Source: Telopea speciosissima
Lineage: Eukaryota; Streptophyta; Magnoliopsida; Proteales; Proteaceae
Direction of reading: 5' to 3'
Assembly (NCBI RefSeq): GCF_018873765.1
Contig: NC_057916.1
Location: 27,007,501-27,071,500 of the forward strand
Length of the DNA stretch: 64,000 bases
A program made the position numbers and the translations under genes. Positions 1,338 to 64,000 of this stretch are shown in pieces. Each line of letters opens with the position of its first letter. The first letter of the stretch is position 1. The notes under the pieces were generated by a model, which saw only the letters and a list, made by a program, of their open reading frames with translations, was not told the DNA's origin and searched no databases.

Positions 1338-1383
1338 ATTCTTCTTGAATTTTTTTTTTTTTTGGTAAATTCTTCCTGAATTT
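1338..1383 (-). mobile_element. Micro-retroinsertion: tail only, 15-bp duplication
   Basis: The insert 1353-1368 is eleven T followed by GGTAA. It is flanked by a 15-bp direct repeat (1338-1352 and 1369-1383, 14 of 15 identical). On the minus strand it reads TTACC plus poly(A), which is what target-primed reverse transcription leaves when the copy is truncated almost to its tail. The parent element is not identified. Confidence 0.7.
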
Positions 1384-1414: not shown

Positions 1415-1462
1415 TTCCTGAATCTTCAATTTTTTTTGGTAAGAAACATTTCCTGAATTCAA
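1415..1462 (-). mobile_element. Micro-retroinsertion, second copy
   Basis: The insert 1430-1449 is eight T, GGTAAG and a few more bases. It lies between TTCCTGAATCTTCAA (1415-1429) and TTCCTGAATTCAA (1450-1462), which match with a small gap. It has the same TTACC-poly(A) end as its neighbour 80 bp upstream. The imperfect flanks make this one less certain. Confidence 0.45.
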
Positions 1463-2755: not shown

Positions 2756-3578
2756 CACGCTATAGTATTACCAAACGCCAATGCTACTCTCAAAATCATG
2801 AAATCAAGAAAATTAATTCCTAGTTTACCAAATAAAAAAATAAAAAAAATAAAAAAGGAAAATTAATTCCACTTGTTGCTATTTTCCGAATTCATCTCAA
2901 TTCTATCGAAAAATACCCAAAAAAAATAAATAAGGAAGCGTTTTAATAGCATTATGTCTCCTTGTCAAGTGAGAGATGAGAACATTGGGCGTAACAATTC
3001 AAAATATTATGAAGCTTTGGAGGAAGATCGAGAAGGTAGGTTTCATTTTGACGCGATCGATTGACCCCACAATCACAAAGTCTCCAGCCCCGGCCTAGAC
3101 GGACAAGCGTCAACGAACCGATGGAGACGATACAGAGGAATTCCTTCCAAAAATTAAAAATACCCAAAGAAAACGCGCCAAGGAAGGAAGAAAGAAGCGA
3201 GAACAGTTGGCGGGTAAATAGAGAGAATGGGAAAGGAGAGGATGAGATTGATGAGGTTATATCGCATTGGCATTTCTAATTCTGGGTTGTTCTGCGTCTC
3301 TCTGTGTGTGTGGAGGAGAACCCGAAGTACAGCTCAACCATCTGAGAAACCCACCTTAGGGGGTGGACCTGTTTACACTTTACCCGAGCAAACTCCATTA
3401 TTCCCATTCCTGCAAGGTTCCTCCAACCTCCTTTCCCTTTCCATCTTAACTCATCTCGTCAATCTTCTTCTTCTTCTTCGTCTATCGTCATTGAAATTAT
3501 TTGGGCAGACAACAATGCGGTCTACCTAATTCCATCCACTGTCGTCATAACAATTATAGTAAATTATAATCTTCATTT

Positions 3579-15316: not shown

Positions 15317-16762
15317 GGGAAATTTTCAGCGCCAGCACCTCAAATGGACCAATATTTTAATGTCAACTCACTAATATTTGGGCCCAAAAACTAACATAAA
15401 TAAACTGAAGGTAAGTAAAATGACTAAACTACCCTTTATGCTAAAATATAAAGTGGTTAACTGAGTTGAATGCAAATGACTAAACTACCCTTTACCTTTA
15501 TTATTTTTTTAATTTCTGCAACTTTTTCCCCCCCCCCCCTCTCTCTGTCTCTCTCCGTCTCTGAGGCTAGTCATCTAGGGTTAGGGTTTCCTTGATTCAT
15601 CTTCTTCTTTCTCTTCTACTCTGAAATAGGAACAGAAGAAGAACCATGGACCCCCAATTCTGAAAACTGCTAAAAAAGGAGGAATTTTTTGGGGGAAATT
15701 GAAGGAAGAGAAGAACACGCGCGACCACTATTCGCCGGTCCTACCATCTTTTGGCAGATCTGTTTTCTTTGTAAATCTCTTTTCTTTTCTATTGGCATCA
15801 GTGAGGAAAGAGCAGGAATAACTTATAAATGGAACTCCTCATTAATGTCCCTCATTTCTGCAATTCTGCATATAAGCATGGGGTTCAACAGTTGGTGGAT
15901 TATACGCTACTATTGACAATTAATGAATAATTTTGGTTTTTTAGGAGCAATTGATCAGATTGAATCACAAAACAGATACAGGTATTACTCCCCATTTACT
16001 CTCTCTCTCTCTCTCTCTCTCTTACATCGAACCCCTCTGATCATGTCACTTACAGCGAACCCCTCTGCCCTGCTGCTGCTGCTGCTGCTGCTCTTGCTCT
16101 CTCTCTCTCTCACACACATTTACATCGAACCTCTCTGCCCTCTGGTCATCTCAGTTGCAGCATACCCAGAAGTTCCTGATCTTCTGTTTTAGAACTAAAC
16201 CCAGTACCGACTATCTCGATCTCCCCCTTTCCATTGGAACCGAAACCCGACTCACACCATCCCAATTTGATTTTGAACTTTGAGAAGTGTGAGAAGGGTT
16301 AATAGATTCACACTTCCCAACGCCATCGACTCCCCCCCCCCCCCTCCTCCCTTCTCGACCTTTGACTACGATTTTGCAATTCCTCCATAATTTTTTTTTT
16401 AAACTAGGGTTTTTTCCTTTTTCATTTTTGTTTCCTCTTAATTATGAATCTGAATGATCTATTCATGGTCTTTGATGAAATTGGATTCAATTTGTGAAAT
16501 TTTCTATTAGATTGGTAAGAAGAAAATGCAAGTTTCAGAGACGGGAAGGCCTTCGTTCGACTGAGGAAGAAAAAGACAAGCTTCAGTTGTTTTAAGGGGA
16601 AGGGTAAAATAGTCTTTTAAAAACATCTAACCTGTTGACATCACTAATTAACGGTTAAAATGTTTTTTCCGTTAGTTTTTTGACCCAAAGTGATATATTG
16701 GCCCTTAGTGGGCTGACATTAAAATAGTGGTCCATTTGACGGGGTGGCGCTGAAAATTCCCC
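15317..16762. mobile_element. Inverted-repeat DNA element (1446 bp), type unclear
   Basis: The left end (GGGAAATTTTCAGCGCCA) and the right end read inverted (GGGGAATTTTCAGCGCCA) match over about 75-80 bp with several mismatches. The match includes CAAATGGACCA, TATTTTAATGTCA and AAAAACTAAC. The interior has C-runs, CT and CTG microsatellites and no transposase. No direct target duplication is visible. The left flank is the cut end of segment A and the right flank is the start of segment A', so the ends were rearranged after or during insertion. Confidence 0.7.
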
Positions 16763-26028: not shown

Positions 26029-28494
26029 ATGTGGTTGCGGCGTATAACAGTGGTTCCCTACTTCGGAGCCTTGAGGAGATCGCCCAGGTCTCAGTGCCTT
26101 CTTACTTCCGTCTATTCATACTCGGACGCTCCTTGCAAAAAGCCGAAGCTTGCCCCTTTACAGGTATCTTTCAAGCCTGGTTTTTTTTTTTTTTTTTAAT
26201 AAAAAATATCTTCTCCACCACAATCTTCCACTTCTTCTTCTTTTTCTTTGTTACCATATTTTTTTCATACGAGCTTTTATGTTTTTGAAATGTAATTGAA
26301 TATGTTGTTTGGTTTGTTTTACTTAGCTTTCCATCCTGGGTTCTTTTGTGATTTTTCTGCAGGAGAGGAGAATGATTGATAAGTTCAGGCTGTGGGCTAA
26401 AGGGGGCCATGGCGGCAATGGGTGTTCCAGCTTCCACCGCAGCCGATGTGATCGCCGGGGCAAGCCCGATGGTGGCTTAGCTCTCTGTTTAATTTCCGTG
26501 TTCTCCTCCCCTCTCTCCCCCATTCTTTTTCTGGGTCAAGATTTATGTTGGAATTACTTAATTTTTTGTTTTTCTCTCCTTCGAATTACTTAATTTCTCC
26601 TTACCATAAAAAAAGAAGAAGAAAGCGTTATCTTCTGGAATTTGGGTTTTGTTTTATTGAGTTTTATAATTGTTTCGTCATTAGTAATGATTTTTTTTTT
26701 TTTCTTTTTCTTCAATTTGGGAATTAATGTAGGTGGGAATGGTGGAAGAGGTGGTAATGTGATTCTAGAATGTTCAGCCGCAGTCTGGGACTTCAGCAAT
26801 CTGCAACATCACTTGGTACCACACTCCCTTCCATTCAGTTCAGTCTTCTCCTTCATTCATGACTGACCATCATTAGTGATTGAAGCATGAATCCAATTCC
26901 TTGTCTTCTTACTAGCTCAATGTGTTAAACATTCACCATTATTAGTAACATATTGAATGTGTCACAGAATGCAAAGAAAGGGGGGCATGGAGCCTCGAAG
27001 AATAAGATAGGAAGCCGAGGGGCAGACAAGGTTCTGATTCTGATTTATAAGCGCTGTTCTGTTATCCTTGTGAGGTCCTTTTATGTTATTTTTTTCTTGT
27101 TAGCAATCATATGGTGGGAGAATACTGAAACTTGCTAATAACATGATTTCATATGGTAGGTTGTGCAAGTACCTGTTGGCACTACAATTCATCTTCTAGA
27201 GGGTGAATTTCCATCTTTAATTGAGAAGTCTTCCTCCACAGCTTTGGATCCTTGGGAGATCCCGGGTGAACTTGAAGGTAATGGTGGTAGTCTGTCTACA
27301 TCCAATCGACAGAACACAATTTTGGATCCTTGGGAGATCCCAGGTGAACTTGAGGGTAATGAGGGTAGTTTGTCTACATCCGATCGACAGAACACAATTA
27401 TCCCCAGTACAACAGAGGTATTGGAAAGAAAGGACTTTGATGTCTCATCTTCATGCATTGAAAGTTTCAACAAGAAATCACCTAGCACCCTGCACGGAGT
27501 CCAGGGGTCATCAGATGGAATTCATGCTCGGTCTTCTCCATTCAGCAAACAATTCAAAGCAGGTATTGATGAATCTGTCTCCCACTCTGAAGAAGGTGAG
27601 AGTGAGGATGAAGATGTAGAAATTGGTGACAGTATGTCAGGGGAAGAATGGGAAGAGGATGAGGAAGAAGAAGTGGAAATTGTACAATATAATGTTGCTG
27701 AATTAAAAGAACCAGGTCAGCAAGTTGTCATTGCTCAGGGAGGAGAGGGTGGTCTTGGTAATGTCTCTTCTGCAAAGGTCTCTATGGCCCATAAACACAT
27801 GAAGCATGGCAACCACAAGGATGGAGCCCCTGAACTTGAGTTATCAGAAGATGAAGATCAATCCTCGCCTAGTGTTGGTTCACCTGGTTCAGAAGCTGTC
27901 CTAATATTAGAACTAAAGAGTATAGCTGATGTGGGCCTAGTTGGGATGCCAAATGCTGGTAAAAGTACTCTTCTAGGGGCCATTTCAAGGGCTAAGCCTG
28001 CTGTGGGCCATTATGCCTTCACAACCCTGAGGCCAAATATAGGAAATCTGAACTATGATGACTTCTTCTCAATCACTGTGGCTGACATTCCAGGACTCAT
28101 AAAGGGGGCACATGAGAATCGTGGACTTGGGCATGCATTTCTGCGGCACATAGAACGAACAAAGGTTCTAGCTTTTGTGGTAGATTTGGCAGCAGCACTA
28201 GATGGAAGAAAGGGTATTCCGCCATGGGAACAGCTGAGAGATCTGGTATTGGAGCTTGAATACCATCAAGAAGGTTTGACAGATAGACCCTCCTTAGTGG
28301 TAGCAAATAAGATTGATGAGGAGGGTACTGAGGATGTATTTGAAGAATTAAAGAGAAGGGTTCAAGGTGTTCCAATTTTTCCTATCTGTGCAGTGCTGGA
28401 GGAGGGGATACCAGAGTTAAAAGCTGGCCTTCGAATGCTCATGGATGGGGTAGAGTCACAAAGGGTTGAATTAAATAGAATTATGCTTGACTAA
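26029..28494 (+). CDS. Obg-family GTPase, mitochondrial type, 574 aa
   Basis: Coding exons are 26029-26163, 26363-26471, 26733-26815, 26968-27030 and 27160-28494. All are GT-AG with matching phases, 575 codons with the stop. Exon 1 (MWLRRITVVPYFGALRRSPR) is Arg-rich and basic, like a mitochondrial presequence. Exons 2-4 give the glycine-rich Obg fold (WAKGGHGGNG, GGNGGRGG, GGHGASKNKIGSRGADK). It is interrupted in exon 5 by an acidic, repetitive insert of about 150 residues before it resumes (QVVIAQGGEGGLGN). The G domain follows: G1 GMPNAGKST at 392-400, switch region TTLRPNIG, G3 DIPG at 439-442, G4 NKID at 513-516. Obg GTPases bind ribosomes and assist large-subunit assembly. Here the site would be the mitochondrion, an inference from the presequence and OBGM likeness. 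An in-frame ATG at 25978 would add 17 residues; 26029 fits a presequence better. Confidence 0.9.
27244..27399 (+). repeat. Two 78-bp coding repeats in the OBGM insert
   Basis: Units 27244-27321 and 27322-27399 each encode 26 residues starting LDPWEIPGELEGN and ending RQNTI. They differ at about three residues. Being a multiple of three, the duplication keeps the frame. It lies in the plant-specific insert between the two parts of the Obg domain. Confidence 0.9.
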
Positions 28495-29883
28495 GTCCTA
28501 TGCTAATTAAGGCTGCAACATTTTTCATCACAAAGCTGCCTTGTTTTTGAATTCTTTGCATTAGTCTAAGACTGACTGACAGGAGGTAAGGGAGGATGGC
28601 TATAGAATGGATTGTGTATTATTTCCGACGATTAAAACAAGAGCCTGTTTTCCAGCAATTCAGAAGCCTTTTGATACTCATAAGTATGATGAACTCCAAA
28701 GATTTCACTTGTTTATTGAGCACTCAATAGTTGAGGACTTTTTTGCATGAGAGTATGAGACCATTGAGGTTAAAACCATGTTAAAGATATTCAAGGTTGA
28801 CAATAAGGGTTCCCTTGAATGTCAATTGCGAACATGCTTCGTGTACTTTAGGTGTGTCATATGTTTCTCCATTGCTCAGATTCTTCAGTAAGGGACTATC
28901 TCCATTTTTTTTTCTCTTTAATTATCAAAGTCAATGACCTTGCTGCAGAGATGGTTCTCAAAACAGGTTACACTACATGGTTGTATGAGTTTGGTGGTGT
29001 GGGTGTTACCATGTGGTTCAAATTTGCCCGGTGGGGAGACTTCTTGCCTATGTGTCTTTTCTTGCCTTGCTAAAAGGAAAGGGATCTTATTGGTAAATAG
29101 AAGAGTGGTTGTAAGCTTGGTTTATGATTGGAGAATTGAAAGAAATGTAGGAAAGAACTGGGAGTGGACTTACCCACCAAACTCGTTTAATCTTGGATCT
29201 GGAATTTGCTACCGTATGCTTATACATGAGCTTCCATGTTAGAAGACCACTTTCATTGGAAATGTGTTAAAGATACCCTTGTCCATAACGTTTGTTGGCT
29301 TCACCAGAGTTTCTCTTTGGAGCTTTGGGGCATTACTTCTATTGCATTTGCAGACCAGTGGTTGTTCTGCGAGGCTGAAATAGCACTGCATCACTATCTG
29401 CGGATAGGATAATCCCAAAGTACCTTAGCTCCCATTGAGAAAAGCCCCTGTAACTGCTTCTGATTCTGCATGTATTATATCTCGGTTTTGATTCACAAGG
29501 GTCTTTCAGACTAAAAGTTAGCCCTTTGATAGTTATTATAATGTGCCTTTTATGTTTGCTTTATTTACACATCAGTTTGAATCAGTAGAGAGGCCTTTAA
29601 TGTATACTTTATATGTATATCATTTTGAATCAGTAGAGACCAATAAATATTTTTTGTTGTTGTAGAGATCTATAATTTGAATCAAGCTGAATCTGTTTAG
29701 GCTCAGTTTGGATCTTGAGAGTCCAAACTGTGGGGTATTGGTGTACTTTTTATGTTTGATTAGTTAATATGAGTAAGCATCCTGGGAATTAGATGTTCAT
29801 TTCTACATTTAGGTCAAGTGATTGTAGTAATCAAAATCTCAACCAAACACATGGGGATTTCAACTCCCAGAAACATGAGACGT

Positions 29884-29925
29884 GGCTATCATTTTGTTTT
29901 TGGGTAACAAGACTTGCCTATCATT
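29884..29925 (-). mobile_element. Micro-retroinsertion, 22-nt insert
   Basis: The insert 29894-29915 (TTG, T5, GGGTAAC and seven more bases) lies between GGCTATCATT and GCCTATCATT (9 of 10 identical). Minus-strand reading ends GTTACCC plus an A-rich tail, like the copy at 62212. Confidence 0.5.
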
Positions 29926-35400: not shown

Positions 35401-38400
35401 GTGTTTTATGCTTGCCAGTCCCAAGCTCAGATAAAGGAGGCTTTTTCTTTTATGACACCAAAACAGAACTAGAAATTAAAAGTTCAGAATCACGGCCAAA
35501 TATCGTATCAGCAATCTTGGTGGATCTAGCCTTAGCTAGAACATGTGCTAGCCAAATTACGTCTTGAATAACCTTGTTTACAGTAGCTGATTCAAAAAAC
35601 TCAAAAAAGAAATTATATTATAGAAAAGATGAAAGAGCTGCCAGGGCCATCAATGAAAGTTTTCTTTCTGCAGCCACCCAACCAGAAGTGCAGAATCAGT
35701 CCAAATAGCTAGGCGCTTGATGCCTTGGTCTTTTGCTGTCCGGATTCCTTGTTCAATTGCCTTCCCTTGATCCCTTCTGCTTCATCTGCCAAATCTACGG
35801 AACCATAATCAAAGGAGAAAACATACAGCTCTTCATTAAGACATAAGATAGATGCCCAACCACTTTCCTTAGTTGTAGGATGAAAACTCCCATCAGTATG
35901 TAACAATGTGTGACCATCAGGCTAACCGAACTTTTGCAGAGAAACAGTTATAGAGGTCAGGGGAGGAGGAGATTCAGTAGTCTCTGGGGAGAGGTGGCAC
36001 CAATTTGTGGGCTTGGGAAGTTATGATTTAAAATTGCACTCCATTGATGAATATGGAAGAGAACACGATGGGGTTTTGGTCAATCCTGCTCATGAAAAGC
36101 ATGGTTCCTTTCCATCCAAATAAAGTATAAAATGAATGAACCAATTTCCAAAACATGATTAATTTCTCTTTTGGAAAACAAAGAGTTGAGAAGAGAAGAA
36201 GACAGTGATGAAAAGGAAGAAACCAAAAGGGAAGAAATGTGTAAACCAAGAGGACTAGCAAACCGAATAATACGAGAAAAGGGGTATTCAAAGAATAGAT
36301 GCCACAAGTATTCCTCAGCTTCAAGATACATTAAACACGTGGTCTCTATGGGAAAAAATTTCTTAAGATAAGATCTAGTGAGTAGACCATTATGACAGCA
36401 TTTCCAAAGAAATAGCTTGAATTTGGGGTGTACCTTTAATTTCCAAATGTGATTCCAAATAGCAGGTTGAGAGGGGTGGGTGTCAAAGGAAATATTAGTA
36501 TTGATTTTCGCAAGGCATGAGGCTGCAATTTTTGTGGAAAAGTGTCTAGTCTGGGAAAAGGGAAAAATAGTTCATCCCTAGTGACTGATGGTGAAAGCTT
36601 CACCTAAAGAATAGAAGAAGCTATATTCGGGGGGTAGAGAGAGGAAATGAGGGGAAGATTCCATTCACCATTGGGGTCCCTTAATTCCGCCACTTGAAAG
36701 TATGGAGGAGAGGTGGGAGGAGAATATGGAATAATAAAGGAGGGTAGGGAAGGGATCCAAGGGTCTGACCAGATCTTCACCAAATTGCCAGATCCAATTC
36801 GCCAACAGAGGAGTTCTTTTAGAGTGGGTCGAAGTTTTCAAATATCCCTCCAAAATTTAGAGCAACTCTTAGGGGTAGAAGCTACTAACAGTGAAGAATT
36901 GTGAAAGTATTTCGCTTTTAGAACGTGGGCCCAAAGAGAGGATGGGTTATTTATGAGACGCCAGCAGAAATTGAGTAGTAAAGCAAAATTATGATTTGTA
37001 CTACTACGAAAACCCAGTCCCCCTATAGATTTGGGTTGGCACAATGCATTCCCTGAGATGGTATGGATTTTCTTCTTTAAAGATGAGTGACCCCATCAAA
37101 AATCTCTTTGGATTGAATCAATTTTATGACAAACGAAAAGTGGGAATCGGTAAAGGGCCATATTATAGGTTGGGTAAGCGGAAAGAACAGACTTGATGAG
37201 CATGGTGCGTCCAGCCTGTGAAAGTAAATTCATTTTCCGTCCAGCCAGCTTGCTCTCAAGTCTCAAGTTTGTCAAATATCCTGGAAGGAAGAAGATCCAG
37301 CCCGGGGCCAGAATAATTTGGTACGCAGATACAGGGAGTTGTTTGAAACCAAGAAGTCTAGACAAAGATTGGTGAGTCGAATCCGAACAGTTTGCACTAA
37401 AATGGATAAAACTCTTATCGAGGTTGACCTTTTGTCCCGACATGTCTTCGAAGAGATCAAGGACAGACTTTATAGCAAGGAAATCATCTTCAGTGGTACG
37501 ACCAAAAAAAAACAATCATCTGCAAAGAAGAGACGGGATATAATCGGGGCTGAATGAGCCAACCTAAAACCTCTGAATAAGCCATCTTCTTGGGCTGCCA
37601 TTATCATGCGGGACAATCCTTCCATTACAAGGAGAAAGAGGTAGGGTGAGAGAGGGTCACCCTGACGGAGTCCTCTGGATGGAGTGAAATGAGAGAAAGC
37701 TGATCTGTTGAGTTTAATAGAATAAGAACAGGAGGACATGCATAAAGATACAAGGTTGCACCATTGGTCTTTGAGACCTAACATTTTCATAATGGCGCGC
37801 ACACAAAACCCCATTCAATCATAAGCTTTAGACATGTCAATCTTCAAGGTTAAAAACCTGATTTTCCTTTTTTGTGACTCAAGAAATACAAAATTTCTTG
37901 GGCCAAGATAATATTGTCCGTGATCTGGCACTCCTTAACAAAAGCTATCTGGAGCGGAGAGATAAAATGATGCAAGAATGGGTGTAGCCTAGATGCCATA
38001 AGTTTAGGCCAAATTACAAAGGCTGATAGGCCGAAAAAGATCCCCACGATCAGCCCCTTTTTCCTTAGGAATGAGAGTGAGCAAAGTGTGGTTTAATTCG
38101 CCGGGGGAAGGGAGAGGGGAGAAGCAGTTGGAGAAGAAATTATAAACAAGTTGGTACAAATCAGGGGATACCAAATCTCAGCATTTCTGGTAGAAAAAGC
38201 CTGGAAGCCATCTGGTCCAGGTGCTTTGTAAGGGTCCATGCTGAAAACCACTTCTTCGATATCATCAAGTGAAGGAATGCAGGTTAAACCTTTATTGTCT
38301 TCAGCCAAGAAAGTGGGCTGAAATAAGTCTACCGGACAATTCGGGTCTAGAGGGTCGGAGTTTTTGAAAAGGTTAGAAAACAAATCAGTAAAAACAGAAG

Positions 38401-41400
38401 CAGTTTCCCCCGGGGGGGGGGGGGGGGGAGGAGAGGACAATACCTTCAGTACTTTGGATTGAAAGAATTCTATTAGAACGCTGCCTGTTACGGGTAAAGG
38501 CATAAAAATAGCGGGTATTGCGGTCACCCAAACAGACATAGGTATCTCGATATTTTTGTTTCCAAAAAATTTCCTCTTCAGATAAAGGAGGGTTGGTGAA
38601 TCAGGTCGGCAGCCAACACTATAAAAAACATTAGCCAAACCCTTTTTTATGGATCCTAGAACCTTATATTTTCAACCTTATGCAAGAGCATACCCTGGAA
38701 GCGACGTGCTACACTTTGACCCGGGTGTAGTGAATAGTGAGCAAGGGTGATGAGGCATAAAACACCCCACCTATCAGAGGCTGCCACATGTCCGACCTGA
38801 CCTTAGTCCGAGAACCAAATTGAGCCGAGCTGAAAATCGGGCCGACCCCATCCCCGATAAGTCACCTGACAGAGCCAGACTTGCGCAAGCTAGCCGGTGG
38901 CTGAGGCCGAGCTCACACAGGTCAGCCATGAACCCCTGGCCGAGCTGATTGCCGAGACCAACCTCTCGGGCCGACCTCTCAGGCCGAGGTGACTGCCAAG
39001 GCCGACCGACTAGGCCGACCTCCCAAGCCGAGCCCTCCTACACGGAAGCTACCATAGCGCCCCACCGGGGATCGCGGGGCCACGTCAGCGCATCTCGAGA
39101 ATCACGGGATAAGAATCGAGTCACGATCCCAGCGCGAAACGAAGTCACACTCTACATGGACTCTTACCTTAACAAGAGCCCGACCCCGAAAATAGCTCTC
39201 CACTCCGCTCTACGCGAGAGAGCCTTCCAGAAGAAGGACTCCTACCATACTAGGACTCTCCCAACCGCCTCATTTCATCCTCACTCTATAAATACCCAGG
39301 TATGCAGCACCACTCCTCATCTTGCTTTCACTACGCAGTTACGCTGTTGCATTGGAGACCTAACTTGAGCGTCGGAGAGTCCTTGGCCAGAGCCACACCG
39401 GCTCTCTTGTGCTCATCGCTTGGTTTTTGCAGGCTCCTCCGTGGGCGAACCGAGCATCGGAGGTTTTCACCCGCAACAAAGGGTTAGCTAGGGTGTCCCC
39501 TGTAAGCGACACACTGCTTCGGTGCCTGGTTGCGGTGACAAGTAGGTCAAGGGTTCTCACACCATGGACAAGTGCGAGTAAAGAAGCTAGTCCAAAAGCG
39601 TAGGATTAGATTAGCATCTTGGAACATACAAGTTTTAACGGGAAAGAGTAGAATTGATAGCTGTTATGAGGAGACAAAGAATTAACATAGCTTGTATTCA
39701 AGAGACTAGATGGAAGGGTTAAAAAGATAACGAATTAGATGACTATAATTTTGGTATACTGGGGATAAAAGTAACAGAAGTGGGGTGGGAATAGTAGCAG
39801 ATAAAGATTTAAAAAATAATGTTGTGGATGTTAAAAGATTTGGTGATAGTAAGTTACAACATTGGGAAAACATGGATGGATTAGTTCAAAGATTTAGTCA
39901 ACGAGAAAAGATTGTTATAGGGGGAGATCTAAATGGACATATTGGAAGAGATCATAGAGATTATGAAAGAGTTCATGGAGAATATGGATATGGAGAAAGA
40001 AATTTGTTGTGGCTTATGATTTATCCATAGTAAAATATATTTTGAAAAGAGAGGAACATTTAGTAACCTTCATAAGTGATTAACATAGTAGCCAAATGAA
40101 TTTCTTTCTAACTAGAAGGGCCGATAGGTTCTTATGCAAAGATTGTAAGGTTATACTAGGGTAAAACCTAACCACACAACATAAATTAGTGGTCATAGAT
40201 ATGTGTCTTAAAAAGCCGAATAGTAAGAAAGGAGAGATTATTTTCCTAGGATAAGATTGTGGAACTTAAAAGAAGAAAACTTGAAAACATTTACTGATAA
40301 ATTGGTCAAACAAGGAAGATGGGACTTTGATGGAGACGCTAATATGATGCGGAACAAGATGATTGTATTAAGAACAATACTAAAGAAGTCCTAGGCAAAT
40401 CTAAAGGAAAACGACATTCATCTAGGGAAACTTGGTAGTGGGATGATGAGGTTCAAGCAGCCATTAAGGATAAGAAATCTAGTTTTAAGACATGGCAAAG
40501 GGCTAAGGATGACGATGATTAAACAGGTAAAATTTGCTAGAATGAAACCAAGAAGATTGTCGAAAATGCAAGGACTAAGAAATATGCGGATCTTTATAAC
40601 AATTTGAGCACAAAGTAAGGGGAAAAAGATATCTATAAAATTGCTAAAATGAGAGGAAGGAAGAGTAGAGAATTCAACCACGTTAGATGCATTAAAAGTG
40701 AAGATGATAAAGTATTAATAAGTAATGAGGATATTAAAGAGAGATGGAAAAAATATTTCTACAACTTACTAAATAAAGACAATATGATTGCAATAACCAT
40801 CAACAAACTATATATATAAATATATATATATGAAAAATTAGGGTGCCTGAAATAAAAGAAGCTTTAAGGATGATGAAAATAGTTAAGGCAACAAATCCAG
40901 ATGGGGTTCCAATAGAGGTGTGGAAAAACCTAGGAATCTATGGATTATCTTGGCTAACTAAGTTGTTTAATAAGATTATGAACACAAGAAAAATGCCAGA
41001 TGAATGGAGGAGAAGCATTTTGGTTCTGTTTTATAAAAATAAAGCTAATAATGTAATATTCAAAGATGCAATAACTAATTAACTATAGAGGCATAAAACT
41101 AATGAGTCATACAATGAGATTATGGGAGAGAGTAACTGAAACTCGCCGGAGATAAGAAACTAATATTACGTAAAACCAATTTGTTTTATGCCAAACTACA
41201 AAAGCAATTTAAGTACTTAAAAGTGAACATAAGGCTGAACATGTGCAACGGAGGCCTTTAGATGCTTCAGTACGGAGGAGTGATTTGATTCATATCGAAG
41301 GAACTAAAAGAGCCAGTGGTAGGCCAAAAATGACTCTAAGAGAAGTGGTGAGGAAAGACATGCATAGCTTACGCCTTGTAACAAGTATAGTGTTGAATAG

Positions 41401-47962: not shown

Positions 47963-48779
47963 AGGTTTAGTGTCTTCATCATTGACGTGTACAATATACC
48001 ATCGTCCAAGCCTGTAATAATGATGGTTGGCAAAAGATCGCAATCTGATCGAGTAGTACCGCATACACTATTGCAAGGGCCAATAAGAGTGTGTGTAGGA
48101 GTCTTTAACTGGATAAGATCTTTTAGTTCATTGGGTTTTGGGGTTGGGGGGGGGGGGGGGCCGGGTGTGAGCGGTATACAAGAGCGGTATACAAGAACAA
48201 CTACAATACCTTTCATTTTTCTCTCAATAGAGAGAATATTATTACATTATTATGTACTATTCTATATGCACCATTCCATGTATACCAATATCTGTGCAAT
48301 TGTGTGTACTTGTGTGCCATTCTATGGACCATAGAGTGCTTCCAATACTCATCTCTCATAAATCACCCTTTGTGTGGTTCAATCATTCTCTCTTTCTATT
48401 CCACCACGTCGCCACAACAAGACGAGAACTCTCGATAAACAAGACTACAAGAGAGAAAGATCACATCTTGCTTCCCGTCTTCTAAAAAAGATATCTCGAC
48501 CGATACCGAAACCATAGTCTATGAAAACAGATTGGTCATATTGAGTCAAATCAAATGGTTTATAATAGATTTGCCTTTAATTTGAACAATTCTTTTCATT
48601 TCTACCGAAAAAATGGACAATTCTTTCCATACAAATCAGACAAGACACCACCGATGCCGATATAGAAAAACCTAAACCTAATCAGATATCGTCTTTTAAT
48701 CATTATCATCCTCATCGCCACGGTCATATAGGTCTCTCTTCCTAACTTTAATGATGAGGAAACCCAACAGGAGGGACCT
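47963..48779. other. Spacer
   Basis: No gene supported. A 13-base G-run lies near 48147-48160, and a short repeat GAGCGGTATACAA occurs twice near 48169-48195. Confidence 0.5.
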
Positions 48780-51361: not shown

Positions 51362-52869
51362 GATGTAAACGGATAGTCGAAACCGAATTCAATTCGTATC
51401 CATGGGTATCCGCATCCGAAGTCAGATAATTCAGAAAAAATCTCATTCGAATAGATGTCAATAAATATTGAAAAAATAAATAATTAATGATCATGAGAGT
51501 TCTTAAAGATTTGACAGGTTTTGAAAAAAATAAGAAAAAGAGTTAAAGACAATTGAGAGACATGGATTAAGAACGAATCATATTTACAAGGAGAAAGAAA
51601 ATCTAAATTACACAAATTAAAGATGTAAATGGATAGTTGAAAATCTGAATTCAATTCGCATTTGTATCCATTTACGGATATCCATATTTGGTTAAGAAAT
51701 ATTCAGATCCGATCACATCTGATCAGTATCCTATTTGTATTCAATCCATTTAGATCTCTAACCAACATCTAGGTTTTTAAAAACCCATAATTGGACACAG
51801 AACCTAAAAGTCGGTTAACCTTTTGGGATTGGTGTGTGGTTTGTGTGATTACACTTTCATCAAAAAATAATTGGACACAGAACTTCATCAATTCCAACTC
51901 TAATTGGATCGAAATCGATCTATACGAATACTAAGTAAATATTTCATATATCTTTAATTTTTTAGAGTTTTTATTTATTAAAAAACCTGGTACATTTTAC
52001 TATTCTACTTAAGTTTCTTTGATTTTCTATGTAAAACAATTTTCTCATTTAACACCTATTTTTTAGAGATTTTGATTAAAAAACCCTTGTGACTTTTACT
52101 GTTTTGGTTAAGTTTCGTTGATTTTTTTATTTAACAATACCCCTTAAGGTGTCAAATAATTGGAATTTTACTTTTTGTCTCTTTAGTATAACACACTTTA
52201 TTTGTTCAATTAAGACAAATCCCATCATTTCACTTGTGTATTAAAAAAATATACAGAGACAATGGCAGTTTTTGCTAATGATATAATAATAAATTAATTT
52301 TAAATTAATTTAAAAATTCATTTTTAACCTTGGTTTAAAGCACTCTTAAGAATAAGTCAAAGACAATCAAAAGAAAGTTACAAGTTCTAAACATGTGAGC
52401 TGTCCTTCACATAATCTTCTATTTAAATGACAGAAGAAAAGAAATAGTCAAAAACTAATGATCCAAGTGCATTTATGGTCAATCTAAACCCAAAGGAAGC
52501 AATTCTTATGCGAAAACTAAGGTTATAAACCTACCATTTCCGTCGATTAACCAAATAACAAAATAAAGTTTTTGCCTAGGGGATATGTCATTAATTTTGA
52601 CTCTAAAATTTAACATGTGACAAATCCAAAAACCTACATTATTGGTTCATATATGACAAGTTTAGAAGCTTCTGGAATTTGATTTTCTTTATTTTGTTTA
52701 CTTAATTAAATTTCTGACTTGAAAATGTATATATTTTATATTTGTATTTTTCTGATATATTATCTTTTTTGTGAGGAAAATCGAGATAATGAGAGTGACA
52801 CTGAAAGCATCCCTTAATTGAATAAAATAAAAAGATTCCATCCATTATTACTATTATTATTTTTTTATG
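51362..52869. other. AT-rich spacer with two related repeat stretches
   Basis: GATGTAAACGGATAGTCGAA (51363) and GATGTAAATGGATAGTTGAA (51624) head two similar stretches with GAATTCAATTCG, probably related repeat fragments. No gene is recognised. Confidence 0.5.
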
Positions 52870-54204
52870 AGAAAAAGAAAGTATATTAAGCAAAAGTGAA
52901 AGATACATTGTTCCTTGACTGGCCATATTTGGCCAGATTTAGCGCTATTGTTAAGCAAAAGTGATCCACTATAGATTTATAAGTAATGTTAGGACCAGAG
53001 TAGTTGATATGTAGCAAGTCTTTAATTAGGTGCCACGGCCAAGGGGAATGAGTTGGAGAGGGAAGAACATCAGTGACCATTTGATTAGAACACCATATTT
53101 CTTTAATCTCCAACCCAGATTCAAAAGCTTTAGTAAGTCCTGCCTTGATACTGTAAAGGTCAATCTCCATAGGTAAAGAAACATTAGTGAAACCTGTAGT
53201 TAAAGCTATAATTCTGCCATTTAACAAAAAGATATTCAACCAGCCCGCACGACTTAATCCTGGGTCCTGGAAACCTGCACAGAACAAAATAGGATGCTTG
53301 AGAATAGGTATAAAAGGGTAACAGACAATAGCTTATTGTGCAATGGTAGCCTGGGTTACACAGTGGGAAGAAATAGGGGAGGGGGAGGACAAAGAAGGGA
53401 GAGGTGAAAGCTGGAGTTCCCTAATCCAGTGTTCCACCTGTTTAAGAACCCATAAAGCATTTGGATGTGAACCCTTCATAAAAACATTGTTTCTTGCAGT
53501 CCAAATATAATAACAAGTAATTATAAACACCGAAAAAAATCAAGATCTGGACTTTTTATTTAAAACAGTAGAGAATAGACTAGAGCACAAATCAATGAAA
53601 GAAGCGAAAGAGAGGAATTCAGTCCTTAGTCCCAACGGGCCAGCCGCCTAAATATGTTTGACTCAATCACAAGATAGGAAAAGGTGCCAAACGGATTCAG
53701 CACAATTTCCACAAAAACCATAGGTAGGGTCGATCTGGATCGAGTTGGAAATAGTTGCCTTGACGGGGAGACCTGCATTTAGCAAACGCCAGAAAAAGGA
53801 TTTAAATTTGGAAAGAATTTTTAGCTTCCAAAAAAAATTCCACCAATCGGGCAATAAATTCAAAGAAAAAAGTGACTTAGTTGACACAGATCTGGCTGCG
53901 ATTTTGGTTTTAAACCTCCCATTTTTGGATGGGGTGAAAACCCAAAAATCATCAGAACTATTAAAAGTAACAATAATTAATTGGGATGAGATTGAGGTGG
54001 GGAATTTAGATAAAACATGAGTATGAAACTCCGAATTTGTAGAAATGACCTCAGCAATAGATCTCCCTTTTTCATGGGTGATTGGGGAAGCAAAAGAAGA
54101 ATAAAGTAAACTTAAAGGCTGAGATGTTAGCCATCGATCAGTCCAGAAAAAAGTGGATGAACCATTTCCCACTCTCTTCAAAACCAGTGTTTCCAGGGGA
54201 GGAA
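52870..54204 (-). mobile_element. L1-type LINE, 3' part, split by Copia
   Basis: Minus-strand pieces read in LINE order. KRVGNGSSTFFWTDRWLT is followed by a zinc-binding RT-associated domain (FFWRLLNAGLPVK...CGNCAESVWHLFLSCD), then IITCYYIWTARNNVFMKG, then an RNase H-like region (about 53290-52890) and an A-rich end near 52870. The 5' continuation lies beyond the Copia element at 60059-60255. Confidence 0.8.
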
Positions 54205-54209
54205 TAATT

Positions 54210-54427
54210 TGTAAGGGTATTTATGTAATATCACTTCATATGTTCTAATATAATCCTACTTGTGTTTTTGCCCAGGCTGTGAGGGCCAATCTAGTAATTA
54301 GCCCATCTGACCTAAACCCTAGTTTTCCTATATATACTAGCTGGAGGCAGCAGTCTGGGTATTCCAAACTAGATACTCAGGGTGTAATGCTTTAAGCAAC
54401 CTTGTGCTTAAAACCCTAACCCTAACA
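54210..54427 (+). repeat. Copia 5' LTR
   Basis: It starts TGTAAGGG and ends CCCTAACCCTAACA. A TATA box (CTATATATAC) lies at 54328-54337. It differs from the 3' LTR by four substitutions. Confidence 0.95.
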
Positions 54428-62195: not shown

Positions 62196-62242
62196 GATAG
62201 TTCCAATTTATAGTTACCCAAAAAAAGATAGTACCAATTTAT
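62196..62242 (+). mobile_element. Micro-retroinsertion, 15-nt insert, 16-bp duplication
   Basis: The insert 62212-62226 is AGTTACCC plus seven A. It is flanked by GATAGTTCCAATTTAT (62196-62211) and GATAGTACCAATTTAT (62227-62242), 15 of 16 identical. It is the plus-strand orientation of the same 3' end seen elsewhere in the window. Confidence 0.7.
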
Positions 62243-62780: not shown

Positions 62781-63448
62781 CATTCACATCCCTATCCCTC
62801 TCCCATATATAAATATAGGAAAAAGACTGTTACTCGATCATGTATAGTGAATGATTCCTACACTTAAACATAGGGCCACATGAAATGATCGCCGGTACCC
62901 CCATAAAAAGGCGAAAATCTCTCATGGTGTTGCAGGGAACCGTCTCCCATATTTATAATTGCTCTCTTCTTTTTTCAATGTGATGGTTACCCTCTCAGTG
63001 TACCAGAGATGATTACATTGAGACTATTCCCAAAGAGAAAAAGGATGGATTTTGTCATCTCTCCTTTCCTCGTCACATAGATATTTTCTTTTCCTACTCA
63101 CCAGTCAATCTATTCAATGAAAAGAAAGAAAGAAAAGTTGATTTGCTTCAAAGCCTAAATAGTGCTTTCAACAGAGAGAGAGAGAGAGAGAGAGAGCCCC
63201 ACAAAACATGATTCTCTTTGCAACTCTCAATGGCTCCAAACAAAGGAACAAACATTTAGAAGACATTGAGAGGTAAAGAGCAGTGGAATATTTAATAGTT
63301 TGTATTTTAGATTGACGGACGGGAAGGAAGCCACCGGTGCCACCACCCACATGGCTAAAGTAATAGTACTCATTTTGGCTTTGGGTGATGGTGGTCCCAG
63401 GTTTTGAGTGGCTTTCGTCCTTCGTTGGGGTCCTTTTGGTGGAGGAGT

Positions 63449-63490
63449 CACTTTTGATGATTTTTTTTTTGGTAAACACTTTTGATGATT
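63449..63490 (-). mobile_element. Micro-retroinsertion, 14-nt insert, perfect 14-bp duplication
   Basis: The insert 63463-63476 is eight T plus GGTAAA. The flanks are the identical 14-mer CACTTTTGATGATT at 63449-63462 and 63477-63490. This is the clearest member of the set: insert and target copy are the same length. Confidence 0.8.
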
Positions 63491-63758
63491 GGACCTTAGA
63501 AAGACACACGATCCTTCCATGTGGGTTTTTAACTTCTCTTTCATCTTCCTCGCTTGTTGTCTGCTTCTATTTTCTAAAGTTATTTCTTCATAATAAAACC
63601 ATATTTGACTAATTGAGAGAGAATTTTGTGAGCAAGCGGTATAGAAGAGTACAGTAATGAAGTGTAATAAAACGATATTGATAATAGTAAGATCATTTAT
63701 TATAAAAAAAAATGATAGTAAAATCATTTCATACGAGGAACAAAGAGATAGACACAAA

Positions 63759-63818
63759 ATGAGTTTTTTGTTTTTTTGGTAAAAAGTAGTTCTATTCAAA
63801 TAAACGACATGAGTTTTT
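63759..63818 (-). mobile_element. Micro-retroinsertion, 40-nt insert
   Basis: The insert 63769-63808 (TG, T7, GGTAAAAAG and 22 more bases) lies between two copies of ATGAGTTTTT. It may show more of the parent's 3' end (minus strand ...GAACTACTTTTTACC plus A-run). The T-rich target makes the ends ambiguous. Confidence 0.45.
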
Positions 63819-64000
63819 ATGTGAAACTAAATGTTTTACCAAAAAAAATGATAAGCCCAATATCTTGTTTTAATAGGAAACTAAATGTAGAAGTTATGAG
63901 GAGTTTTATTGTAGAAGTTATGAGGAGTTTTATTTCCTTCAATCCTTTGGCCAGTATAATTCCGTGGGTTTCGCTAAGAGAGAGCTAAAGGTTTAGATCA

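Follow-up and report, generated by a model that had tools for sequence, protein, structure and literature searches.

The 28 extra base pairs at 63449-63490 are very probably the product of an L1-type LINE insertion that was target-primed and stopped six bases past its poly(A) tail. This reading is the most likely because of the target-site duplication (TSD), the excess of such tails and a copy with an L1 RNase H that shares the 3' end. The locus lies in a window of 64,000 nt from Telopea speciosissima (C1:27007501-27071500 of an 822,943,500-base assembly); with a GC content of about 38% and L1, RTE and copia remnants recognised by eye, it has the character of flowering-plant nuclear DNA. At the locus, we distinguish:

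63449..63462, no strand: left target-site copy CACTTTTGATGATT, 14 bp, read from the sequence; the target is single in both C11 paralogs.
63463..63476, minus strand: micro-insert, TTTACC as a 6-nt body plus an A8 tail; missing from both C11 paralogs.
63477..63490, no strand: right target-site copy CACTTTTGATGATT, 14/14 identical, read from the sequence.

The original prediction that eight T plus GGTAAA sit between two identical 14-mers was borne out: CACTTTTGATGATT stands at both 63449-63462 and 63477-63490 (14/14, a TSD in the 10-20 bp class), and the spacer is TTTTTTTTGGTAAA (T8GGTAAA, or TTTACC-A8 on the other strand). The poly(A) tail adjoins one target copy, with two further A of the A-run falling in that copy, outside the A8; at some other micro-insert loci, a few extra bases separate the tail and the target copy. 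No function is seen for the insertion.

When window positions 63300-63640 were searched against the genome, two more copies appeared on C11. One matches in two pieces, at 96% and 89%, and the other at 74% over the whole query. Both paralogs (C11:37364804-37365390 and C11:18954668-18955006), aligned to the window locus, show the empty site, with GTCACTTTTTGATGAT single and the insert and second target copy missing. Thus, the feature is an insertion with a TSD. Since both are empty, the micro-insert postdates the duplication that gave the 96% copy; the alternative, precise loss from both paralogs, is unlikely. The T-run at the target has five T in both paralogs and four in both window copies, so this difference probably predates the insertion. 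In the closest paralog (C11:37364760-37365430), an unrelated insert of about 280 bp lies some bases beyond the empty site; it is flanked by ACACACGAT-like copies and is perhaps a different mobile element.

A second empty site was found at locus L021, where about 7 kb separates two similar repeat copies. The filled copy reads GATATGATGATGTTGT-ATTTACC-A11-GATATGATGATGTTGT and the other has the 16-mer once. They align with 242 of 311 positions identical and 50 gapped; the gap at the insert is 34 bp, equal to the insert plus the 16-bp TSD, and the one other gap (16 bp) is about 30 bp off. As for the contrary case, an insert without a duplicated target, the empty copies at both compared loci carry the target once.

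Other short poly(A) inserts occur in the window:

1338..1383, minus strand: micro-insert TTACC-A(11-14), TSD of 15 bp with 1 mismatch.
1415..1458, minus strand: probable micro-insert ATGTTTCTTACC-A8; exact TSD of 9 bp (score 9), longer only if a 2-bp indel is allowed.
2808..2870, plus strand: micro-insert TAGTTTACC followed by an impure A-rich tail; perfect TSD of 13 bp.
26548..26596, minus strand: short poly(A) insert that ends differently, in GGAGAG-A5CA3; TSD of 17 with 1 mismatch.
29878..29925, minus strand: possible micro-insert TGTTACCC-A5CAA between 16-bp copies (14/16), found by eye with the letters checked; it is absent from the output of the automatic scans.
48583..48630, plus strand: micro-insert TTCTACCG-A6 (TACCG end), TSD of 17 bp with 2 mismatches.
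62196..62242, plus strand: micro-insert AGTTACCC-A7, TSD of 16 bp with 1 mismatch.
63681..63729, plus strand: short poly(A) insert that ends differently, in ATTAT-A8; TSD of 18 with 2 mismatches.
63754..63818, minus strand: longer relative, 26-nt body TTATTTGAATAGAACTACTTTTTACC plus A7C, TSD 13/15; AATAGA lies 13 nt before the tail.
63823..63888, plus strand: TTTTACC-A8 tail inside a 12-bp direct repeat, with 28 bp between the tail and the second repeat copy; perhaps two events that overlap.

That several inserts in the window share the TTACC end, as had been claimed, holds for those at 1338-1383, 62196-62242, 48583-48630 (as TACCG), 2808-2870 (with its impure tail) and 63754-63818, with two weaker additional cases at 1415-1458 and 29878-29925. 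Elsewhere, L016 8460-8554 holds two adjoining micro-inserts in opposite orientation with overlapping target (TSDs of 16 and 13 bp, both perfect). Besides, window 51787-51883 and L002 8180-8268 have a common 3' part (GATTGGTGTGTGGTTTGTGTGATTA..ACTTTCAT plus an A-rich stretch), bodies of about 63 and 51 nt and TSDs of 17/17 and 17/18; they represent another short retroposon family, one truncated elsewhere than at 7 nt.

The window holds 190 T-runs of at least six on both strands, and a TSD-like pair (score of at least 9) accompanies six of them, against a mean of 0.23 when right flanks were exchanged between T-runs (40 swaps). An unbiased scan for short-gap direct repeats retrieved 61 pairs, against a mean of 12.05 in 20 local order-2 Markov shuffles. 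Pairs enclosing a TACC-A(n) tail numbered seven, vs. none in the 20 shuffles, and those enclosing other A-runs six, vs. 1.1. The remaining 48 of the 61 pairs lack an A-run, and poly(A) insertion leaves them unexplained; one of these many short-gap duplications, at 16021-16067, consists of 19-bp direct copies, identical at 18 positions, on either side of a 9-bp spacer without a tail.

Short tandem duplications by break repair are known in plants, and the 48 pairs without an A-run speak for staggered-break repair as a source of small tandem duplications, here with a pre-existing T-run within the unit. Such duplications resemble our loci in having two short direct copies around a small spacer. 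However, the T(n)GGTAA spacer recurs at unrelated targets, and the T-run and GGTAA are wholly missing from the empty copies at the two loci compared, which makes this origin very improbable.

Genome-wide, the 823-Mb assembly contains 6647 matches to T9GGTAA (3276 + 3371) vs. 769 to the reversed pattern (410 + 359), and 219 (117 + 102) to T9AGTGA, in which the last five letters are permuted. We sampled 80 loci with 82 TTACC-A9+ tails, all of one exact tail pattern and all before C1:5987965 (the first 6 Mb): the first 20 sites on C1 (L022-L041) and 60 regions covering most of the next listed places (L042-L101). A TSD score of at least 10 was reached at 43 of the 82 tails vs. 1.36 expected from swapped flanks. 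Micro-inserts (TSD score of at least 9, body of at most 14 nt) were found at 42; for 32 tails, no TSD within 130 nt scored 8 or higher, and the other 8 had weak or longer pairs. At permuted-tail controls, we retrieved no micro-insert in 20 (Fisher p 5.8e-6 vs. 42/82), and a TSD-like pair at 26-115 nt in 4 of the 20. As the first 100 T9GGTAA sites on C1 fall inside 7.8 Mb of the contig start, they are denser there than the genome mean (6647 in 823 Mb).

A tail-independent sample of 264 kb, made of 20 regions of 10 kb (15 on C1 and one each on C2-C6) plus the window, had 348 A-runs of at least seven and gave 22 micro-insert calls. A-runs after TACC or TACCC numbered 18, of which 12 were micro-inserts, and the other 10 calls had different ends. 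Doubtful rows among the 22 are window 18468, the window row with body TAATTTAG, L014 and L017 on the plus strand; in the 200 kb without the window, 14 of 16 calls were judged convincing. A crude extrapolation from this small sample, mostly of one chromosome, gives roughly 58,000 micro-inserts genome-wide. The micro-insert shares are likely minimum values because TSD detection fails for old copies.

The refuting case named with the original prediction, no excess over shuffled sequence, was tested in part and did not occur: T9GGTAA greatly exceeded reversed and permuted patterns, alongside the excesses over swapped flanks and shuffles. Chance repeats around poly(T) would have the window's 190 T-runs to arise from, but with 43 real cases vs. 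1.36 expected, 7 real vs. 0 in 20 shuffles and empty sites at two loci, we regard them as a negligible explanation.

The unusual feature, overlooked in the original prediction, is a sharp peak of body length near 7 nt. We measured 59 micro-inserts, 42 from the T9GGTAA set and 17 that have ACC- or ATC-like ends and come from the sample and window, included on a body of at most 14 nt before boundary refinement (L035 equals L002:8577, and one was removed). The body was 5 nt in 7 cases, 6 in 8, 7 in 17 and 8 in 9 (median 7), so 34 of the 59 had 6-8 nt; lengths of 0, 3, 4, 9-14 and 19 nt had one to four micro-inserts each. Three are counted but doubtful: body 0 in L047 (a nested pair), body 3 at window 18468 (poly-C) and body 19 in L032. 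The median TSD was 16 bp and the median tail 11 A; TSD pairs were mismatch-free in 40 of the 59 and differed at 2.5% of positions.

The peak is not produced by the 14-nt cut-off, because only four of the 43 cases with a score of at least 10 have bodies of 15-130 nt (L029, L073, L068 and L100). None of these is a clean TSD of ordinary length; in L029 the pair measures 35 bp, and L073 resembles one micro-insert nested in another. Body and TSD lengths were negatively correlated (rho -0.46, p 0.0003), which fits misplaced boundaries, so single body lengths are uncertain by at least one base. TSD starts are A-rich (A at +1 in 36/59 and at +2 in 44/59), a weak signature of an endonuclease nick at a T-rich/A-rich junction, as the alignment could run into the tail and be biased to A.

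Body and tail length were not correlated (rho 0.05, p 0.69, n 57). A stop at a fixed distance from the poly(A), irrespective of tail length, also suits a tiny template: LINE RNA that a host nuclease, or an exonuclease halted by a tail-bound protein, has cut or trimmed until about 7 nt plus poly(A) remain, and that the enzyme then copies to the template end. In the part of PMC10830420 that treats truncation, host cleavage of L1 RNA or intermediates is held likelier than poor processivity. Against it, few ends dominate (12 of the 22 calls end in TACC or TACCC), whereas general mRNA trimming would vary the ends; trimming of LINE RNA alone is compatible with dominant ends, and 10 of the 22 ends differ. 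We consider a tiny template possible but rather doubtful.

Longer copies with the TTACC end point to L1. Of the first 20 sites, L041 combines an 811-nt body with an 18/18 TSD and the TTACC end, and its body contains a 264-codon open frame that matches Pfam RVT_3 (E 7.7e-26), clearly an RNase H fragment of an L1-LINE ORF2. L030 has a 383-nt body with 15 exact TSD bases; at seven of the first 20 sites, no TSD out to 1.45 kb was convincing. L030, L027 and L036 resemble L1 C-termini by eye, and of the three longer-copy fragments scanned L041 was positive, while those of L030 and L036 had no Pfam match at 0.1. Two L1-like remnants in the window, at 35709-38671 and 52886-54220 (minus strand, by eye), showed no TTACC-A(n) end in the stretches inspected.

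Taken with the two empty-site comparisons, the longer L1 copy with the same end further supports target-primed reverse transcription halting within a few bases of the poly(A), a claim already backed by the TSD, the tail and the genome-wide excess. Six bases of body at 63449-63490 cannot name the source LINE, and we infer its derivation from L1. A SINE cut to its tail would look identical, even if a 14-nt insert has no room for the SINE pol III internal promoter. Alternatively, the bases next to the poly(T) could be untemplated, as the L1 enzyme is able to add such bases according to a passage of PMC10830420, and bodies vary beyond TTACC, whereas only 2.5% of positions differ in TSD pairs. Nevertheless, the TTACC end is found on longer copies, one with the L1 RNase H, and similar ends are seen in L1-like copies (read at the first A-run past the frame, with no TSD check). 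Thus, SINE tails or untemplated bases instead of LINE sequence are an unlikely source. A tRNA-CCA end (ACC-A), suggested by bodies that finish in ACC, was set aside as a source, since the longer copy with the same end is L1 and the bodies are T-rich.

Upstream of the tail, a hexamer (AATAAA, AATAGA, AATATA or AATAAT) was present in the last 40 nt of 11 of 40 non-micro tails. It ended 9-14 nt before the tail in nine of the 40 non-micro copies vs. 1.26 in shuffles, none of 500 shuffles reaching nine, and the other 31 lack a hexamer at this spacing; in micro-insert flanks, it was found there in one of 42. This is the spacing expected for a polyadenylation signal.

As for the parents, we traced downstream five of at least 150 zf-RVT matches and read the 3' end at the first A-run that follows the open frame. 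These copies end in CTCCACC, CTTTAGCC, CTTTAGC, ATTAGC and CTTACCGAT, ends that stand without TSD support; because they differ, several L1 3' ends seem to coexist in the genome. T9GCTAA (the TTAGC end) has 396 + 448 matches genome-wide vs. 85 + 67 for the reversed pattern; among the 100 matches listed on C1, the stretch at 38-44 Mb has 28 and the first 16.8 Mb has 20. Of 20 TTAGC sites (C1:0.85-16.8 Mb, 140 bases each), four were micro-inserts, with bodies of 6, 7, 7 and 7 nt, vs. 42 of the 82 TTACC tails on the same 60-nt span (Fisher p 0.013, the 20 sites having no swapped-flank control). The 7-nt stop is therefore probably not tied to one end sequence.

In six of the 20 TTAGC sites, the sequence preceding the tail resembles TTGCTGACCTTTAGC, with a single change in some of them (L131, L132, L134, L137, L144 and L145; also L125 and L127), whereas TTACC ends are mixed; the six had no close match to micro-insert bodies. 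Micro-inserts also occur with TTAGC, CCACC, GTTTATC and TGACC ends, and L1-like copies with TTAGC and CCACC ends. The suggestion of one active parent family was not supported, given these other ends and the longer or unresolved TTACC-A(n) copies that differ upstream.

For 63449-63490, we propose that a LINE endonuclease would nick the target and reverse transcription would begin on the poly(A) of a LINE RNA whose 3' end is ...TTTACC-A(n). The tail and six more bases would be copied before reverse transcription halts, and joining of the stub to the target would duplicate 14 bp. We infer the enzyme, the supplying LINE and the cause of the stop. The cause we prefer would be a checkpoint that the RNA imposes about 7 nt 5' of the poly(A), in long and short tails alike, so that the stop would sit just 3' of the hexamer resembling a poly(A) signal. 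There, the reverse transcriptase would fail to leave an RNA end held by itself or by a partner protein. We prefer this failure of release only slightly over its chief competitor, an RNA cut just 3' of the poly(A) signal. A hairpin block was not supported: near the end of the 32 copies without a near TSD, which need not all be L1, mean pairing was about that of shuffled sequence (folded with a 12-A tail).

These inserts are in line with 5'-truncated insertions of L1-clade LINEs in plants and mammals, which share the poly(A), a TSD of about 15 bp, a 3' end in common with a longer L1 ORF2 fragment, and empty sites. The median TSD of 16 here agrees with the L1-clade peak of 13-15 bp given in the relevant part of PMC4245944. 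They also recall plant L1s with conserved (stringent) 3' ends as outlined by Ohshima in a section of PMC3747384: the terminal sequence by the poly(A) recurs and the upstream sequence differs. The monocot L1 3' end is described there as conserved over 45 nt with a stem-loop; unlike it, our copies have little in common beyond TTACC and no stem is evident. Compared with ordinary truncated L1 insertions, the body here is only about 7 nt long, with a sharp peak. The frequent 5' truncation of LINE insertions is not well understood, as stated in a portion of PMC10830420.

We know of no account in which ordinary 5' truncation gives a sharp 7-nt class. A search of open-licence papers, using tail-string and plant or short-LINE wordings, found no 7-nt class described. 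Relative to the descriptions located, what appears new is the sharp, very short length class; the rest would fit an L1-type truncated insertion.

Overall, we favour, with moderate confidence, a discrete early checkpoint in plant L1 reverse transcription, about 7 nt past the poly(A), that ends a large share of insertions and leaves stubs as an overlooked class. The sharp class makes the cause of LINE truncation testable. If the 42/82 share from the first 6 Mb of C1 held for all 6647 T9GGTAA sites, one tail would account for some thousands of stubs. Each stub brings in about 30 bp together with an A-run and would escape annotation by body homology; those with empty copies could serve as markers of descent. 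If this is true, the stubs would be an overlooked class of insertions, tens of thousands by rough extrapolation, that record the sites of failed jumps.
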